This document shows, piece by piece, positions 56,306 through 64,000 of a DNA stretch of 64,000 nucleotides. The translations under genes and the position numbers were made by a program. The stretch spans positions 1-64,000 of the forward strand of contig NZ_SOAW01000001.1 in assembly GCF_004364645.1 (NCBI RefSeq). The letters run 5' to 3'. The stretch comes from Naumannella halotolerans. Lineage in GTDB: Bacteria > Actinomycetota > Actinomycetes > Propionibacteriales > Propionibacteriaceae. The notes below the pieces were generated by a model. It was given only the letters and a program-made list of their open reading frames with translations. It ran no database searches and was not told the origin of the DNA. Each line of letters opens with the position of its first letter. Position 1 is the first letter of the stretch.

Positions 56306-56999
56306 TCAGGCCGGCTGCGGTACGCGCCCGTCGGTCTGTGCACTCGCCGTTGCGAACGTACCCGCCGCCAGATAGCGCTCACCGCTGTCGGGTAGGACGG
56401 CGACGATGGTCTTCCCGGCATTCTCCGGACGCTGGGCCAACTGGGTGGCGACCCAGGTGATGGCGCCGGCGGAGGTGCCGATGAGCAGGCCCTCCTCGGC
56501 TGCCAGGGCCTGGGCGGCGGTCCGGGCGTCGGCGGTCTCCAGGGCGATCACCTCGGCCCTTCCTGGCCACCCTGGTCGAGAATCCCGACGCCTACTTCAC
56601 CGATCAGCTCGCCAATCCGGGTCGGCGAAGTTCACATTGGGCACGGTCACCACTTCGGCACCGAAGGCCTGCAGCAAGGTGATCTTGTCCGGGCTGATGT
56701 TGTCGCTGAGGTAGAACTTCGTGCGGTAACCGTGGCGGGCGGCGATCGCGGCCAGGGAGATCCCCGGTGTTGCCGCTGGTGACGTCGACGATCGTCCCGC
56801 CGGGCTGCAGGGCGCCCGATTCCTCGGCCTGGCGGATGATCGACCAGGCGGCCCGGTCCTTCACGCTGCCGAGTGGGTTGAGGTATTCGAGCTTCGCGAG
56901 CAGTCGTGCCCTCAGGCCGCGGTTGGTGGAGTACTTCTGCAGTTCGAGCAGCGGGGTGTGGCCGATCAGATCGGTGATGCTGGTGGCGATGGTGGTCAT
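56306..56999 (-). pseudogene. cysK: Cysteine synthase (O-acetylserine sulfhydrylase), broken
   Basis: The intact N-terminus (MTTIATSITDLIGHTPLLEL) carries the PLP lysine region LGSVKDRAAW and VTSGNTG. Then an extra G at the GGGG run near 56771 shifts the frame; the next frame continues ISLAAIAARHGYRTKFYLSD to NVNFADPD. Here a segment of about 60 bp (56568-56622) is inverted: the plus strand reads [20 protein letters not shown], the sequence expected next on the minus strand. After it about 120 residues are missing and the gene resumes at [20 protein letters not shown], with normal C-terminus [17 protein letters not shown]. Non-functional. Confidence 0.85.
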
Positions 57000-57647: not shown

Positions 57648-57720
57648 GGGGCTATGGCGCAGTTGGTAGCGCGTCTCGTTCGCAATGAGAAGGTCAGGGG
57701 TTCGAATCCCCTTAGCTCCA
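57648..57720 (+). tRNA. tRNA-Ala (anticodon CGC), integration site of the AICE
   Basis: Acceptor GGGGCTA/TAGCTCC, anticodon loop TTCGCAA, T-arm with TTCGAAT, discriminator A; CCA is encoded at 57721-57723. The 3' end is followed after 33 bases by an integrase gene that faces it, the classic arrangement of an element inserted in a tRNA gene. Confidence 0.95.
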
Positions 57721-57723
57721 CCA
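57696..57723 (+). other. Probable attL core in the 3' half of tRNA-Ala
   Basis: Site-specific AICE integrases use the T-arm and acceptor end of tRNA genes. The expected core is AGGGGTTCGAATCCCC plus the acceptor end. The matching attR would lie to the right of this window, so the core is inferred from position only. Confidence 0.55.
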
Positions 57724-57755
57724 CCGGAAACAGTGGGGTTTCCACACCCGCGAAG

Positions 57756-58841
57756 TCAGTTCTCCACCTCGTCATGTCGTTCACGTGTGCCCCCGGCGTG
57801 CCCCGGACCATTCAGCCGTGCCAGACCCGCTCGATCCGCACCCGTTCCCAGATGGTGCAGATAGATGTTCGTCGTCGCGATCGACGCGTGCCCCATCCAC
57901 GCCTGCACGGTCACCGGATCGACCCCGCGAGCCAGCCACAAGCAGGCGGCCGTGTGCCGCAGATCGTGAATCCGTCGACCGCCAGCCGTCGATGACCAGT
58001 TCAGCGTCCGCTTCACCGCCGTCGCATGCAACCGGTGCCCGGTCACGGTCGTGAACAGCGGCTCATCAGGAGCACGATCGGCAGCCATCGACCGGACCAG
58101 CGGCAGCACCTTTCCGGCCAGCGGCACTCGCCGACCCTTGCCCGATTTCGAAGCCTTCGCCGCGACACCTTCGGGCTCGGCGCGCTCCACCACCAGCATC
58201 GGCATCGGAACCTCAACCAGATCCCGTACGCGGACCGCGCGCAGCTCCGACCACCGCAGACCGGTCCACCCAGCGATCAGCATCACCTCGGCCAGGCGAT
58301 GATCCCGCTCAGCCGCCCGAGCGACGAAGGCATCCAACTCGGCCTCATTGAACGGATACATCTCGACCTTCGGGCTGGCCGCCTTCGGGACGCGTGTCGG
58401 CGTCACCGGATTCAGCAGGATCAGCCGCTCCCGCACCGCCCAGGCGAAGAAGGTCGACAACGACGCACGGAATCGCCGCACCGATGACTCCGCCAGACCC
58501 CGGCGGGTCAGATGGATCAAAGTACGCGTCACCTCGCGGTCGGTGACGGAGCCGATCGACAGTGCCGCCAGGTTCGTCGGCACCAGACGCGGCAACGCCC
58601 GATCGGCCACATACGTCTTGGCCGACACCGAGTCCTTGCGCTCCTCCAGCCAGATCGGCAGCAGCTTTGCCACCGTCTCCCGACCAGCACGAGGATCGAC
58701 ACCTCCGGACAGCGCCGCCCGCTCACGGTTCAGCCATGCTGTCGCTTCACGCTTGGTATCGAACGTCCTCCCCGCGACATAGGTGCGGCCGGACTTGAGC
58801 ACCGCCCGGAATCGTCCGGATGGCTCCTTGCGGATGGTCAT
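57756..58841 (-). CDS. int: Tyrosine recombinase integrase of the AICE
   Basis: Site-specific recombinase of 361 residues that inserts and, with Xis, excises the element. It has an N-terminal arm-binding part (FRAVLKSGRTYVAGRTFD), SAM-like core-binding domain (DSVSAKTYVADRALPRL), and catalytic domain with Arg in GWTGLRWSELRAVR, IHDLRHTAACLWLA, WMGHASIATTNIYLHH (R, H-x-x-R, H, Tyr). All catalytic residues are present. ATG 58841 overlaps the xis stop by four bases. Confidence 0.94.
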   Translation of the reverse strand: MTIRKEPSGRFRAVLKSGRTYVAGRTFDTKREATAWLNRERAALSGGVDPRAGRETVAKLLPIWLEERKDSVSAKTYVADRALPRLVPTNLAALSIGSVTDREVTRTLIHLTRRGLAESSVRRFRASLSTFFAWAVRERLILLNPVTPTRVPKAASPKVEMYPFNEAELDAFVARAAERDHRLAEVMLIAGWTGLRWSELRAVRVRDLVEVPMPMLVVERAEPEGVAAKASKSGKGRRVPLAGKVLPLVRSMAADRAPDEPLFTTVTGHRLHATAVKRTLNWSSTAGGRRIHDLRHTAACLWLARGVDPVTVQAWMGHASIATTNIYLHHLGTGADRAGLARLNGPGHAGGTRERHDEVEN

Positions 58842-59035
58842 GCCACTTGATCATGCAGCCAGGACAAGACATCGTCACGCTGATACCGAGGCACCGACGG
58901 GGACAACCACGTCACCCGAGGCCCCTGCCCGGCGGTGCGCCAACGACTCAGTGTCGACCGGTCGACCTTCAACACCTTGGCCACCTCCGCGCTGGTCATC
59001 AGCACCGGAAGATCACTGGACAACAATGCACTCAT
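58838..59035 (-). CDS. xis: Excisionase / MerR-like HTH protein
   Basis: A 65-residue protein with the helix-turn-helix LMTSAEVAKVLKVDRSTLSR and wing PRYQRDDVLSWLHDQ, as in AICE excisionases. It overlaps int and is the usual partner needed for directional excision. The start is ATG 59035, with AGGAGATTGTC upstream. Confidence 0.88.
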   Translation of the reverse strand: MSALLSSDLPVLMTSAEVAKVLKVDRSTLSRWRTAGQGPRVTWLSPSVPRYQRDDVLSWLHDQVA

Positions 59036-59221
59036 GACAATCTCCTCGTGTCAGTCGGGGAACGGCTTCCCCGGATTTGATCTTGAATGGGGTTCAGTCA
59101 CCGGGTGGCGCGTCAAGGGCACCTGCGGTGTCACTGCGTGATTCGCGTTGCTCACCCTGGACCCGCCACCCGGTGACCGAAGGGATGGCAGCTATCCGGG
59201 GAAGCCGGATCACGGTCGCGT
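59036..59221. promoter_or_regulatory. xis-int leader with nested inverted repeats
   Basis: Outer arms CGGCTTCCCCGGAT (59063-59076) and its exact complement (59194-59207) enclose inner arms TCACCGGGTGGCG (59098-59110) and its exact complement (59164-59176; matches extend with one mismatch to 59093 and 59181). The region lies between rep and xis, so it may be an operator, a long RNA stem, or a replication site. Confidence 0.7.
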
Positions 59222-60793
59222 TCACGGGTCGGGGCCGGTTGCCGAACGGGTTTCCACAGCCTGTTTCGCGGCGTCGTACTGATCACGCCAGGAGCGTCGT
59301 TGGACGATCAGGTCGCTGATGACGCGGGCGTAGGTGTCGGCGGGGACGTCGGTGTCGGTCCAGATGTAGCGGGGGTGGCCGTCGGTGCTGGTGACGTCGG
59401 CGGCCATGGATTCGATGTCGGGGTCGAGGTATCCGGCGGCGTGCAGGGCTTCGCGGACCACGCTGGCACGATCGGCGCGATGCCGGGCGAGGGTCTTGCC
59501 GGACCATTTGCGGGAGACCAGGACGCGGCGGCCGCCGAGGCCGAGGTGGTCACGATCGTGCGCCTTCTTCGGGCACCGGCCCGGTTCCATCCCGCGAGCA
59601 GCGTGGTCGGGCTGGACGCCGTAGCGCAGCCAGTTCCAACACCCAGGCGAGCAGGGCAGGAACCGCAGTTCGGCTTCCATCCGGGCGATGTGCGCGAGCC
59701 GCCGGGGATGATCGTCGGCGTCGTCACCGCCGAGCGGGTCGGAGACGGCTTTGGTGAGGTACTTCGTCAGATAGCGGACGGTCCGGTCAGCTTCGGGGGA
59801 GGGGGCGATGATCCCGCGTGAATCGTGCTGGGTCCCGAAGCGGAGCAGATGCGCTGGCCGATCCAGATCCTCGGTCGCCTCATCCCAGGTGGGGAGGAGT
59901 TCACCGGTGGTCGGGTCGGCGTATCCGGCACCGGTCCACACCGGCAGCTCGTCCAGATAGACCGGCTGGTCGTGTTGCGGCCACCACACCTGGTGATAGA
60001 CGGCTGCGAGTGCTTGGCGGATGATCTGGTGGGGGATGGTGCCCCGGATCGCCATGTGTAGGTGCGGCGCGAGCCGGGCTTGCGGTTCGACGGTGGCGAA
60101 GTATTGGAGCTTGAACCCACAGGTCCGGCGGAGCTGTTGGATGAATCGGTCGACGAGCTTCGCGAAGTGCACCGTGTCCCTGGCTTGCCGCTGGTAGTCA
60201 TAGCTGGCCGGGTCGGTCGGGGCACCGTCACGAACTGGACCGTAGGAGGGCAGGGTGAGGGTGAGGAACATCGACGGCCGGAACTCCCGACCCTCCGGCG
60301 TCCGATAGACGGTGCCGATCGTGCGGTCCTCGACCGGGACACGCGGCAAACTTCCCGCATCCTGCCGACGACGCGTCGACCGTTGCCGACGACCGCCCGC
60401 AACGGCCCCGACCAGGCCAGGTGTGGCGTCGTCGACCGGGCTCGTATCATCTGGACCAGATAGTCGGCTGTCGGCGTCCGCTCGGTCGTCGTTGTCGTGG
60501 TGATCTTGGTCGCCCGGACCGTCTGGAGCGTCCGGGTTGTCGTGGGTGTCGGGTTCGTCGGTGCGGTGCCAGCCTTCGGCGCATTGCTGCATGCGGAGCA
60601 CGCGTGCTTTGTGGGCGCAGGAGGGGCAGGCGGATGCGCGGGTGGCTCCGCAGGGGAGCGCGACGACGGTGTCGCTGCCGGTGTCGCGGTCGAGGACGCG
60701 GCGCATCATCGGCCGCACACAGACGCGTTCCTTGATCGCGAGTTCGCGCATGGTGTCGTTCAACACCTCCCGCAGCCGCACCGGCGCACCCAT
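59222..60793 (-). CDS. rep: RepSA-like replication initiator (rolling-circle, HUH type)
   Basis: Element-encoded initiator of 523 residues. An N-terminal zinc-finger-like part (VVALPCGATRASACPSCAHK), a low-complexity Asp/His-rich linker (about residues 77-150), then the endonuclease domain: FLTLTLPSYGP, the metal-binding HUH motif APHLHMAIRG near residue 245, and TVRYLTKYLTKAVSDPLG with the probable catalytic Tyr residues. It matches pSAM2 RepSA, which replicates the excised circle. GTG/ATG start 60793, 15 bp after the translocase stop. Confidence 0.9.
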   Translation of the reverse strand: MGAPVRLREVLNDTMRELAIKERVCVRPMMRRVLDRDTGSDTVVALPCGATRASACPSCAHKARVLRMQQCAEGWHRTDEPDTHDNPDAPDGPGDQDHHDNDDRADADSRLSGPDDTSPVDDATPGLVGAVAGGRRQRSTRRRQDAGSLPRVPVEDRTIGTVYRTPEGREFRPSMFLTLTLPSYGPVRDGAPTDPASYDYQRQARDTVHFAKLVDRFIQQLRRTCGFKLQYFATVEPQARLAPHLHMAIRGTIPHQIIRQALAAVYHQVWWPQHDQPVYLDELPVWTGAGYADPTTGELLPTWDEATEDLDRPAHLLRFGTQHDSRGIIAPSPEADRTVRYLTKYLTKAVSDPLGGDDADDHPRRLAHIARMEAELRFLPCSPGCWNWLRYGVQPDHAARGMEPGRCPKKAHDRDHLGLGGRRVLVSRKWSGKTLARHRADRASVVREALHAAGYLDPDIESMAADVTSTDGHPRYIWTDTDVPADTYARVISDLIVQRRSWRDQYDAAKQAVETRSATGPDP

Positions 60794-60808
60794 CGGACTC
60801 AGCCCTCC

Positions 60809-62137
60809 TCATCCGGACGCCGCGACCGCCGACGGCGCGAGCTGCGTGAGCCGGGCGTGCTGTCCCCGGTGCCCGGATCCTGGCTCGTGGCGGGTGGGCA
60901 GATGGGGGATCTTGTGACAGGTCGCCCCGGCCTGGACTGCTCCGTCGCCGAGGACCATCGCGACCTCTTCCCGGTCCCGCAGCCGCAGCCCCAACGACTG
61001 GGGGAACAGGTGCCGCATCTTCACTATCTCTTTGCGCGGGTCCTGCAAGAACGCGAGCACCAGGAACTTCGGTGCCCGGCCTGCGCTCAGCAGCCGCGAC
61101 AACGCCGCCTCCGCCCGCTTCACCAGATCCCGATCCGCCGAATAGGCCACCAGCGAGGCAAGTTCGTCGACCACGATCAGCACCAGCGGCTCCGCGATCG
61201 TCGGCCGGTGATCCCGCACCCGACCAGCCAAGGCGTGCGTGCGCTCCTCCAGCCGTTGCACGGCATCCTCCAGCAACTGAACGGCCTCAACAGGTGTGGT
61301 GGCGGTGCGGGTGAACAAGCGTCGGCCCATGGTGAGTTCCATGCCGCCTTTGAGATCGATCCCGTGCAGCTCCACCAGCCCGGACCGGACCGCCGGGGCG
61401 AGCGCCAAGATCGTGCTCCACATCACCGATGCCTTACCCGCGCCAGTGCACCCAGCGACCAAAGTCGAGATCAGCGGCAGCCACCACGTCGTGCTGTCCT
61501 CCGTCCGACCGACCGGCACCGCCACCAACTCGCCACCCGAGCCGTAATCGGCACCGTGGCCGTAGTCGGGGATGGTGGCGAGGAACGGTTCACCCAAGGG
61601 GTCACCGAAGGACCACACGATCCTGCAGGTCGTGTAGGTGTCGTCGGGGATGATCCGGACCCGGCGGGCACCGACAGCGGTCCGTAACCGGTCGGCGGCG
61701 TGTTCGACATCTTCGACGGTTTGGCCGATCAACAACAACAGATCGACCGACAGCTGACCGTCGATCCAGCGCAGCCGCCGCCGTGATGGCACCGCCACTG
61801 TTTCCTCGCCGGGGGTGCGGCGGGCGAGGCCGCAGGCATCCATGACCGGTCCCCAGCTCTTGCGGACCCACCGCTTCGTTCGCCGCCGAAATGACGGCAG
61901 TGCCACATGCCGGTCGAACGACACGGGCCAGACCCGCGCCCACACCCCCAGCAGGGCGAGGTAGGTGACGATGACGATCAGCGGCCACCGGTTCTGCTGG
62001 ATCTCGCCGACACAGACGATGATCACCGCGAGCAGCGACCACAGCCAGTACCGCAGCAGCAGCCGGACCAGCCGCGAGACCCACCACCACACTTCCAGCC
62101 CGCACCAGCGCAGCACCTTGATCGCCGGCATGATCAC
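60809..62137 (-). CDS. FtsK/SpoIIIE-type DNA translocase for conjugal transfer (TraSA/TraB-like)
   Basis: Membrane-bound hexameric motor that moves double-stranded DNA between mycelia or cells. Two TM helices near the N-terminus (LLLRYWLWSLLAVIIVCVGE, IVTYLALLGVWARVW), a linker, then the motor: Walker A LVAGCTGAGKASVMW, Walker B PLVLIVVDELASLVAY, and GRAPKFLVLAFLQDPRKE. Ala follows the Walker Lys, where Ser or Thr is usual; small residues at this position also occur in AICE relatives. The start is GTG 62137, overlapping the previous stop; ATG 62131 is close. Confidence 0.9.
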   Translation of the reverse strand: MIMPAIKVLRWCGLEVWWWVSRLVRLLLRYWLWSLLAVIIVCVGEIQQNRWPLIVIVTYLALLGVWARVWPVSFDRHVALPSFRRRTKRWVRKSWGPVMDACGLARRTPGEETVAVPSRRRLRWIDGQLSVDLLLLIGQTVEDVEHAADRLRTAVGARRVRIIPDDTYTTCRIVWSFGDPLGEPFLATIPDYGHGADYGSGGELVAVPVGRTEDSTTWWLPLISTLVAGCTGAGKASVMWSTILALAPAVRSGLVELHGIDLKGGMELTMGRRLFTRTATTPVEAVQLLEDAVQRLEERTHALAGRVRDHRPTIAEPLVLIVVDELASLVAYSADRDLVKRAEAALSRLLSAGRAPKFLVLAFLQDPRKEIVKMRHLFPQSLGLRLRDREEVAMVLGDGAVQAGATCHKIPHLPTRHEPGSGHRGQHARLTQLAPSAVAASG

Positions 62138-62547
62138 GCCGCCTTCGAATCACCAGCAGCACGTCCACCCTTGGGTGAGGCCATCCCGGTGGCTCGCAGC
62201 GAGAACGCGATCCGCTGCCGACCATTCCCCACATCCTTCAGATACGGGGTGACCGTCAACTCACTCAGCACCACCGGCCGCACTGGAACACCCGGGATCG
62301 CTTCCGGCGGCACCGGCTGCACGTCCGCCAGCAACTTGACCCGGTGGGTGCGTTCGCGGGCTTCGGGATCGAAATCCATCACATCGACAACCCACACCGG
62401 CAAGCCAGTGCGCTCGTCCACTTGCTGCACCTCACGTTCCTTCGATGAACGGTCGAAATCACGCTGCTTCGACACCTCACCAACCACCCCCGCACCATGC
62501 GGGAACACCTGCTGAAAACTGACCTGAAACGGACCCTGAACGCCCAT
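62134..62547 (-). CDS. Conserved AICE protein of unknown function
   Basis: A 137-residue soluble protein from ATG 62547 (MGVQGPFQVSFQQVFPHGAG) with AGGAGG eight bases upstream. The longer reading to 62757 would overlap the divergent promoter and is rejected. Segments ERTGLPVWVVDVMDFDPEARE and RPVVLSELTVTPYLKD suggest a beta-rich fold. It is the first gene of the tra-rep-xis-int run and overlaps the translocase start by four bases. Similar genes precede the translocase in other AICEs. Confidence 0.75.
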   Translation of the reverse strand: MGVQGPFQVSFQQVFPHGAGVVGEVSKQRDFDRSSKEREVQQVDERTGLPVWVVDVMDFDPEARERTHRVKLLADVQPVPPEAIPGVPVRPVVLSELTVTPYLKDVGNGRQRIAFSLRATGMASPKGGRAAGDSKAA

Positions 62548-62746
62548 GGCGTGTGCCTCCTGGTACTCGCTGCACATCGGAACTTCCGATGCATCTAGCG
62601 AACGGCGTGGGCGAGTTGCGCGAAAGATGGCAGGAGGTGGCAGGCACCGTGCCAGGAGTGCTAACCCTGCGAAACGGTTTGATATGTCAGTCCGATGAGG
62701 CAGCATGCTGTGCAACCGATGAGGCGCTACGCACCAGGAGTTGACG
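62548..62746. promoter_or_regulatory. Divergent control region of the AICE
   Basis: Separates the transfer-replication operon from its XRE regulator. Candidate operators: TGGCA-N7-TGCCA at 62638-62654, with a further direct TGGCAGG at 62628-62634, and the perfect palindrome CAGCATGCTG at 62701-62710. A -10-like GATATG is at 62681-62686. Confidence 0.5.
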
Positions 62747-63823
62747 ATGGCGTACAACCAAATTCGAGCGGCACGCGAAAGCCGCGGATGGTCGCAGTCA
62801 CGGCTTGTCGCGGAAATTGAGCGTGCAGCTCAAGCGAATGGCGTCTCGCTGATGACTCGGGGATCCCTGACGACCGCTCTTTCGCGCTGGGAAAACGGAC
62901 ACGTCGCACCGAAGCAGCACCACCGCAGTTTGCTCCGGGCGACCCTAGGGATTGACCTTGACGATGGCCACAACACGGGCGAGCCAATCGGTCAGGCAAT
63001 GACGCTGGTCCAGGTCGACGCGCAGGCCGAAGTGCTCAGTGCGATCCGTCGATCGGATCGTCACGGACTCGCGCACATGACCAACCCGCAGCTCGACATC
63101 TATGCAGCCGCCCTCCGAGGCAGCCTTGGCACCGGCGGACCGTTACCGGTACGAATCCGGCTGGCGGCGCTGCTCGCTGACGCAGAGGCCTTGATTGCCT
63201 GGCAACTCATTGACCTCAGCCAACCAGCAGCCGCTTTGAGTCGATATCGCAGGGCCGAGCAATACGCGCGCGATGCGGAGGACGCTCACCTGATCGCGCA
63301 CGCCCGGGCGGGTCAGGCTGTCGCGCTGATTGATCTTGATCACCCTGACGATGCGCATCAGCTCATGCAGGCCACACGAGCCCAGGCCGAAGGCAAGGTA
63401 TCCACGTTGTTCTGGGCGTGGCTGCTCGCCGCCAACGCTGAGACCGGTGCTGCCGCCGGCGATGGCAGGACATGTCGAGAATCTGTGCGCGCTGCTTTCG
63501 ATGTCTTGCCTGACGGTCAGCGGGCCGACCCAGCGCTGCCATACATCACGCTTGGTCCTGCCCACCTACAGCGGTGGGCGGGGCACTCACTGAGCATGAT
63601 CGGGGAGCGCAGCGCGATTGACATGCTGGAAGAAGCGGCAGAAGCGATGCCGATCGACTTCGTCCGTGCTCGGGGCAGTCTGCATACCGACATGGCCGAG
63701 TGCCATGCACTGCTTGGTCATAAGTCTGATGCCCGTCGAGAGCGGGGGACTGCGCTGGAGCTCGTCCAGGAGAGCGGATCCCGACGACAGCAGCGGCGGC
63801 TCAACTATCTGGTGGCCGCCTAA
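62747..63823 (+). CDS. XRE-family regulator with TPR-like sensor domain
   Basis: A 358-residue regulator. The N-terminal HTH (IRAARESRGWSQSRLVAEIE, ALSRWENGHVAPKQHHRSLL) is followed by a helical-repeat region (about 120-340; for example AAALSRYRRAEQYARDAED, MIGERSAIDMLEEAAEAM). This form is common at AICEs and probably represses the divergent transfer operon, its TPR part sensing a peptide or protein. ATG 62747 has CAGGAG six bases upstream; TTG 62741 is less likely. The end overlaps the convergent Nudix gene by 23 bp. Confidence 0.85.
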   Translation: MAYNQIRAARESRGWSQSRLVAEIERAAQANGVSLMTRGSLTTALSRWENGHVAPKQHHRSLLRATLGIDLDDGHNTGEPIGQAMTLVQVDAQAEVLSAIRRSDRHGLAHMTNPQLDIYAAALRGSLGTGGPLPVRIRLAALLADAEALIAWQLIDLSQPAAALSRYRRAEQYARDAEDAHLIAHARAGQAVALIDLDHPDDAHQLMQATRAQAEGKVSTLFWAWLLAANAETGAAAGDGRTCRESVRAAFDVLPDGQRADPALPYITLGPAHLQRWAGHSLSMIGERSAIDMLEEAAEAMPIDFVRARGSLHTDMAECHALLGHKSDARRERGTALELVQESGSRRQQRRLNYLVAA

Positions 63824-64000
63824 CGCGAGCAATCAAGTAGAGCAGGGCAACCAGCGAGCCAGAGCCCAGAACTTCACCTCGCGCGGCCATTTGGGGAATG
63901 CTGGCCAGCGGAACCCACCGAGACACGCCAGTCTCCTCGCTGTCAGTCTCCGATGTCACGTGAACCGCGTCACGGCTTGCGAAGAGGTCGTGAGGGCTAT
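63801..64000 (-). CDS. Nudix hydrolase, C-terminal fragment (runs off the right edge)
   Basis: Stop TGA at 63801-63803. The last 66 codons read SPHDLFASRDAVHVTSETDS, then EETGVSRWVPLASIPQMAAR and GSLVALLYLIARVRRPPDS. The W-V-P-L-x-x-I-P-x-M spacing and hydrophobic LLYLI end fit the C-terminal part of Nudix proteins that often sit beside the XRE regulator in AICEs. pSAM2 carries a Nudix protein, Pif, that blocks transfer between element-bearing cells. The Nudix box itself is outside the window, so the call is tentative. Confidence 0.55.
   Translation of the reverse strand, partial: SPHDLFASRDAVHVTSETDSEETGVSRWVPLASIPQMAARGEVLGSGSLVALLYLIARVRRPPDS

Follow-up and report, generated by a model that had tools for sequence, protein, structure and literature searches.

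The element and its ends

Close to the right-hand edge of the first 64,000 nucleotides of contig NZ_SOAW01000001.1 of Naumannella halotolerans (assembly GCF_004364645.1; this whole stretch is called the window below), a tRNA-Ala(CGC) gene is followed by a row of genes for an integrase, an excisionase-like protein, a replication initiator of the RepSA type and a DNA translocase, with a strongly folded non-coding gap between rep and xis (Table 1). We conclude with high confidence that these genes belong to an actinomycete integrative and conjugative element (AICE) of 8.5 kb, integrated in tRNA-Ala(CGC) and extending from 57676 to 66252. Taken as such, it is an ordinary, firmly supported case that adds to the AICEs whose two ends are known; more important is the cruciform formed by the rep-xis gap, whose stems covary.

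The identification holds because an attachment (att) repeat is present at both ends, the core families and their catalytic motifs are there, and relatives show the same gene order. The contig extends past the window, and its positions 55001-74000 (piece L009), which are identical to the window across the overlap, contain the second end. The exact repeat of 56 bp begins within the tRNA, in its anticodon arm, and ends 8 bp past the gene; its two copies are identical and stand 8,521 bp apart from core to core, and its 47-nt tRNA part was found, with up to 3 mismatches allowed, at only two sites of the own genome, attL and attR. Inward of each core sits one copy of a shorter exact repeat, CCCCCGGCGTGCCCC, and by this position the pair can be proposed as candidate integrase arm sites flanking the core of the element. 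The G+C content is 0.644 for the element, 0.682 for the window and 0.588 for the M10 protease gene beside attR. The initial annotation had described the left part of an AICE in this tRNA, with the integrase facing the tRNA 3' end, the visible core genes intact and an attR to be sought on the right. All of this was borne out: attR is an exact copy, int ends 32 bp from the tRNA, and the core genes are all open frames, none broken being seen past the window either. The Nudix gene cannot be kept as the end of the element, since 64000 is merely the edge of the window and the M10 gene lies between the Nudix gene and attR.

The part of Ghinet et al. 2011 (PMC3218068) drawn on here gives as AICE features a tRNA att site, Xis, RepSA, an FtsK-like Tra, Nudix proteins compared to Pif, and XRE regulators resembling NsdA. 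The window element has a site-specific recombinase (PF00589) with 56-bp att repeats in a tRNA 3' end, an excisionase-like HTH_17 open reading frame (ORF), a replication protein of the RepSA/RepAM/prim-pol kind (PF20199) and an FtsK/SpoIIIE-type Tra, with neither type IV secretion proteins nor a relaxase among the 8 proteins scanned (smaller ORFs were outside the scan). Judging from these families, Int and Xis would recombine attL with attR to release a circle, which RepSA would nick for rolling-circle replication, and Tra would carry double-stranded DNA into a neighbouring cell. The Nudix protein is, by analogy, a candidate Pif-like immunity factor acting against transfer, the XRE/NsdA-like protein would be the repressor of the operon, and the M10 protease would be cargo.

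Some observations weigh against this identification. A clt site and the genes spd and pra did not turn up, in an analysis that used no search with their own sequences; no clean empty site was seen in G004, the sole congener among the 197 genomes of the family (Propionibacteriaceae); and the Walker A motif of Tra reads GAGKAS, while 41 of the 43 matches to the strict motif, the window's own counted, have a G after the lysine and one an N. This count covers loci matching the strict motif, the second AICE of the genome (on contig C4) being among those left out. The change had been considered as a defect of Tra and was dropped, since relatives carry G, not S or T, at that place.

Table 1. Positions of the element's features and of related sites
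Feature	Position	Strand	Basis or remark
tRNA-Ala(CGC), integration site	57648..57723	+	ARAGORN; Rfam RF00005, 70.1 bits
attL core, 56-bp exact direct repeat	57676..57731	+	attR copy at 66197-66252, same contig, past window
int, tyrosine recombinase	57756..58841	-	PF00589, 2.4e-20; motifs GLRWSEL, HDLRH, GHAS, NIY
15-bp exact direct repeat CCCCCGGCGTGCCCC	57790..57804	+	second copy at 66103-66117, past window
xis, HTH_17 excisionase-like, 65 aa	58838..59035	-	PF12728, 2.5e-8; phrog_66
nested cruciform, candidate replication origin (single- or double-strand)	59036..59221	-	DNA fold, covariation; match of model R1 at 59033-59218
rep, RepSA-type HUH rolling-circle initiator	59222..60793	-	PF20199, 296.9 bits, 3.9e-88; HLH and YLTKY motifs
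tra, FtsK/SpoIIIE-like DNA translocase	60809..62137	-	PF01580, 4.3e-8; Walker A GCTGAGKAS, Walker B LIVVDE
207-aa ORF without family	62134..62757	-	relatives at 49 of 65 RepSA loci (tblastn)
divergent XRE/NsdA-like TPR regulator	62741..63823	+	NF053720, 110.6 bits (cut-off 75); HTH_3 0.00025, below its cut-off
Nudix hydrolase gene	63801..64445	-	PF00293, 6.6e-18; Nudix box; cut by window edge at 64000
secreted M10-type metalloprotease	64834-65910	-	past window; Pfam Peptidase_M10; motif HEFGHAGGLGH
putative integrase C-terminus relic	66253-66310		past window (L009:11253-11310), just outside attR
recombinase-like ORF of G004	L166:6143-6721		by eye; end runs through antisense of tRNA-Ala(CGC)

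A conserved cruciform between rep and xis

The 186-nt gap between rep and xis folds, as DNA, into a nested cruciform of -51.4 kcal/mol (z -5.54), and relatives show the same design 3' of rep. For the covariation analysis, 45 pattern matches were reduced to 17 distinct sequences beside rep, the rest being 10 duplicates, 2 copies not beside rep (L113 and L117) and 16 matches, several within tra, that were judged to be chance. In this alignment 94.7% of the cells pair, against 81.6% after shuffling and at most 48.3% after sliding; for covariation the score is 0.386, with 0.140 and at most 0.097, respectively, in the two controls. The structure was derived from these same 17 sequences, which biases the slid control in its favour, and shared descent can by itself outdo shuffles. 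The stronger part of the covariation case lies in the compensatory changes, which affect both sides of 16 of the 31 pairs. When the alignment was widened to 22 copies, including copies far from rep, 24 predicted pairs were kept and 18 had changed on both sides; TTGA is invariant in all 22, and a C precedes it in all but one. The pattern of a subtype like that of pMR2 from Micromonospora rosaria was found in 4 of 69 sources and never in the reversed control. The conservation of this cruciform is real, and any function given to it is a proposal.

With a calibrated model of the structure (R1), matches were found in 22 of the 197 family genomes, the own one included (E ≤ 0.01). RepSA genes (PF20199) were then located in these 22 genomes and in G020 and G167, which have rep and no R1 match; 16 of the 24 have RepSA. 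They contain 37 RepSA places, 30 of which were marked intact (in 14 genomes; the rep of G017 is counted here though its longer match reads over one TGA), while the 7 marked as fragments were not counted (a match follows rep in 3 of them, is upstream in 2, elsewhere in 1 and missing in 1). At 17 intact genes a match lies at most 240 bp after the rep domain, at 8 it lies 6.7-25.6 kb upstream (one seen by the filters-off search only), and 5 showed none at first. Turning the filters off around these 5 revealed same-strand upstream matches for 4, at 3.4-9.0 kb and with 33.2, 28.8, 26.5 and 20.9 bits, the last one a weak case; the rep of G163 has no cruciform match even then. Default and filters-off searches taken together, a copy on the same strand accompanies 29 of the 30 intact genes, adjacent in 17 cases and 3.4-25.6 kb upstream in 12, and the best R1 match in 91 kb of control DNA reached 16.5 bits. 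With neighbouring elements set aside, an adjacent and an upstream match were never found together within 30 kb of one rep, the 17 rep-adjacent cases having been searched with default filters only.

The structure also occurs away from RepSA: among the 41 matches of the family (overlapping strands merged; one from the filters-off search), 11 have no RepSA within 30 kb, several of which are weak or sit at short contigs. In G004, a contig of 32 kb that looks like a plasmid carries a copy of 51.7 bits (L245:6539-6693, or C2:12538-12692) about 1.5 kb before a gene for a MobA-type relaxase; a ParB-like gene is present on this contig, and the genome has no RepSA match. The plasmid pMR2 has a weak match of 22.1 bits, which is on the same strand as rep, does not adjoin it and lies in the gap following int. 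Public genome records hold 65 RepSA loci, and 13 of these have an R1 match at E ≤ 0.001, 6 beside rep and 7 upstream; L099 reaches only 13.3 bits (E 0.7). The reading of the cruciform as an origin is weakened on several sides: the 24 genomes were mostly picked for having a cruciform match, with RepSA genomes of another subtype without R1 match outside the sample; an R1 match is absent at 51 of the 65 public loci (E ≤ 1, default filters, flanks of up to 9 kb); and the best match in pIJ101 has 12.9 bits.

Possible role of the cruciform

Its fold, strand and placement suggest that the cruciform is most likely a cis-acting replication site. A single-strand origin (sso) fits best and a double-strand origin (dso) next, because the structure is strand-fixed and strongly folded, takes two positions relative to rep and is found also with a relaxase in the absence of RepSA; we would give the sso roughly even chances. 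Like an sso, the cruciform is non-coding, strongly folded and confined to one strand, all 29 of 29 paired copies being on the rep strand. That it would instead be a dso nicked by RepSA, with the conserved CCCTTGA strand as nick region, appears to us distinctly less probable. Its position directly 3' of rep in the window element favours a dso, as do the invariant TTGA of the 22 copies and its near-invariant C, a stretch that resembles the pC194-type nick region. The pC194-like nick site cited for pSAM2 in the part of Ghinet et al. 2011 (PMC3218068) used here counts on the same side. However, a site next to rep, as a dso would have, is present in 17 of the 30 intact cases, whereas in 12 the match is 3.4-25.6 kb upstream and in 1 it was not found; moreover, the cruciform accompanies high- and low-scoring RepSA genes alike, and the copy of G004 stands with a relaxase and a ParB-like gene in a genome without RepSA match.

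Action in RNA, as an attenuator, a terminator or a small RNA influencing the expression of xis and int, would agree with the window, where rep, xis and int are probably transcribed together and the cruciform would be part of this transcript, in sense orientation. It is nevertheless improbable, since the same 12 upstream copies are away from xis and int, and since the tRNA alone matches Rfam at gathering score within the element. Three matches to Rfam by E-value in the rep-xis gap (two animal miRNA families and Mu-gpT-DE) were all far below the cut-offs and were taken as chance. Even when every RNA-level or other role is considered, such a function stays unlikely compared with a replication site.

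Returning to the cruciform as an origin, we tentatively suggest, at somewhat less than even chances, that a single, so far undescribed class of strand-specific replication origin is common to RepSA AICEs and to at least one plasmid-like contig which lacks RepSA. Its members may consist of two nested stems forming a cruciform, with GTCAAGGG/CCCTTGAC at the top and small hairpins with GNA loops, and could usually be present as one copy per element, either immediately behind rep or kilobases before it, in the direction of the end that is distant from int; because of these two placements, the origin would seem to have been kept while the rest was reshuffled. The calibrated model, together with the copies that accompany 29 of the 30 intact RepSA genes in this sample, provides a concrete candidate origin. 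Its importance lies in transfer: in the passages of Ghinet et al. 2011 (PMC3218068) considered here, replication is reported to be necessary for the transfer of pSAM2, and RepSA proteins of the pMR2 type are predicted to recognise their own origin sequences. Among the literature matches listed, neither an AICE single-strand origin nor an AICE-borne M10 gene was recognisable.

Neighbouring genes and relatives

The xis frame overlaps int by 4 bp. Relatives of RepSA were found in 13 of the 197 family genomes, the own one included (E ≤ 1e-60), and the 65 public loci have their top scores in Microlunatus kandeliicorticis and Enemella. Around these 65 loci, relatives of tra are present at 51, of the 207-aa ORF at 49, of int at 42, of the Nudix gene at 4 and of the XRE gene at 3; the order 207-aa-tra-rep is seen at 45, with int coming next in 27 of the 45. 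The 207-aa protein itself has no match in Pfam, NCBIfam or PHROG. Three records of the plasmid collection, pMR2 among them, contain relatives of Rep, and the viral contigs none.

Relatives of int occur in 19 of the 197 family genomes (the own one included; E ≤ 1e-30), and among the 20 int loci besides the own one, tRNA-Ala(CGC) lies within the fetched flank at 7 and tRNA-Thr(CGT) at 3. In the genome G070 the tRNA part of the att repeat occurs twice without mismatch, at a distance of 28.7 kb. A Nudix gene at this end is not general in the family, because close relatives (E ≤ 1e-30) occur in only 3 of the 197 genomes, the own one, G073 and G167. On contig C1 of G124 we observed 6 intact RepSA genes and a split one, which suggests that this one genome may hold about seven AICEs.

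A second AICE and the M10 gene

The same genome contains a second AICE (C4:35598-48426, piece L011), integrated in tRNA-Arg(ACG), the 3' end of which is repeated over 54 bp. It shares with the window element the gene order, the cruciform 3' of rep and an M10 gene just inside attR, with tblastn identities of 67% for rep, 73% for the Nudix gene, 62% for the 207-aa ORF, 56% for the XRE gene and 48% for tra. It differs by the tRNA, the length of the att repeat, an integrase only 31% alike, an M10 protein about 35% alike and several kb more sequence between the M10 and Nudix genes.

These two M10 genes are the only PF00413 matches of the genome, and each is the first recognised gene inside the attR of an AICE. 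Relatives are rare, being found in 4 of the 197 family genomes (E ≤ 1e-8) and in 16 of 396 genomes of the phylum (E ≤ 1e-15), the own one included in both. Examination of 7 other loci (3 in the family, 4 in the phylum; one of these stretches begins at a contig end) revealed no link of M10 genes with AICEs outside the own genome, no relatives of the other genes of either AICE (mdp of the C4 element apart) being nearby, and M10 as a general AICE module was dropped. These neighbourhoods are what would be expected if the protease gene were old chromosomal DNA and not cargo; with the gene lying inside attR, and the genome's only other PF00413 match just inside the attR of the second AICE, this seems very improbable to us, and we retain the cargo interpretation.

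Site history and mobility

The tRNA appears to have been used before. Just outside attR, about 54 bp within the first 60 bp past the core resemble the end of int at attL, with an alignment score of 33 (maximum of 30 in 2000 shuffles and of 27 in 4382 genomic windows), and the resemblance is in frame: THEAHAEMET-stop versus TRERHDEVEN-stop of int. We take it as the probable trace of an earlier integrase that occupied the same tRNA. In the sister species G004, a recombinase-like ORF, recognised by eye, reads over the tRNA-Ala(CGC), and the same tRNA may thus serve another element there. The G004 locus resembles the own one over 95 bp at 93% on the left, and on the right over no more than 46 bp, at the 3' end of the tRNA; with the recombinase-like ORF over the tRNA and so short a right match, it was dropped as proof of an empty site. 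The relic points to earlier partial loss at this site, and the element could be a fixed remnant which no longer moves, the regulator perhaps holding it silent; yet the recognised genes are all open, the att cores identical and the catalytic motifs present, and we regard immobility as rather unlikely. Outside the element, on the minus strand at 56306-56999, we also observed by eye a cysteine-synthase-like frame which is apparently frame-shifted (ORFs 56604-56999 and 56306-56551).

Comparison with known elements

The initial annotation had called the element an AICE of pSAM2 type, which stands in the loose sense, Rep belonging to the RepSA family of Pfam, and is not borne out in the narrow one: Rep has 27.2 bits against NF041486, whose cut-off is 700, and no match to a GntR (KorSA-like) regulator was found among the 8 scanned proteins, which have an XRE/NsdA-like regulator instead. 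By its profile score, Rep would not be an ortholog of the RepSA of pSAM2. pSAM2 of Streptomyces ambofaciens (described in part in PMC3218068) shares with the window element a tyrosine integrase acting in a tRNA 3' end, xis, a RepSA-family rep, an FtsK-like tra and a Nudix gene, which in pSAM2 is Pif. It is set apart, by description and profile and not by alignment, by the score of Rep far below the NCBIfam equivalog cut-off and by KorSA, which XRE/NsdA replaces here.

The AICEs of Frankia and other AICEs with an mdp-nud-xre cluster can also be compared: in the part of Ghinet et al. 2011 (PMC3218068) cited here they share a Nudix gene adjoining the XRE regulator, the NsdA likeness of this regulator and the likeness of the Nudix protein to Pif, whereas the 8 proteins scanned in the window element include no mdp-like (HD hydrolase) match. 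Finally, pMR2 (NC_006910) differs by an annotated UTRA-domain protein and a glycosyltransferase, with neither Nudix nor M10 among its 15 listed features, but shares the replication part: a RepSA-type Rep with 42.6% identity over 96%, the order rep-xis-int and an FtsK-like tra upstream.

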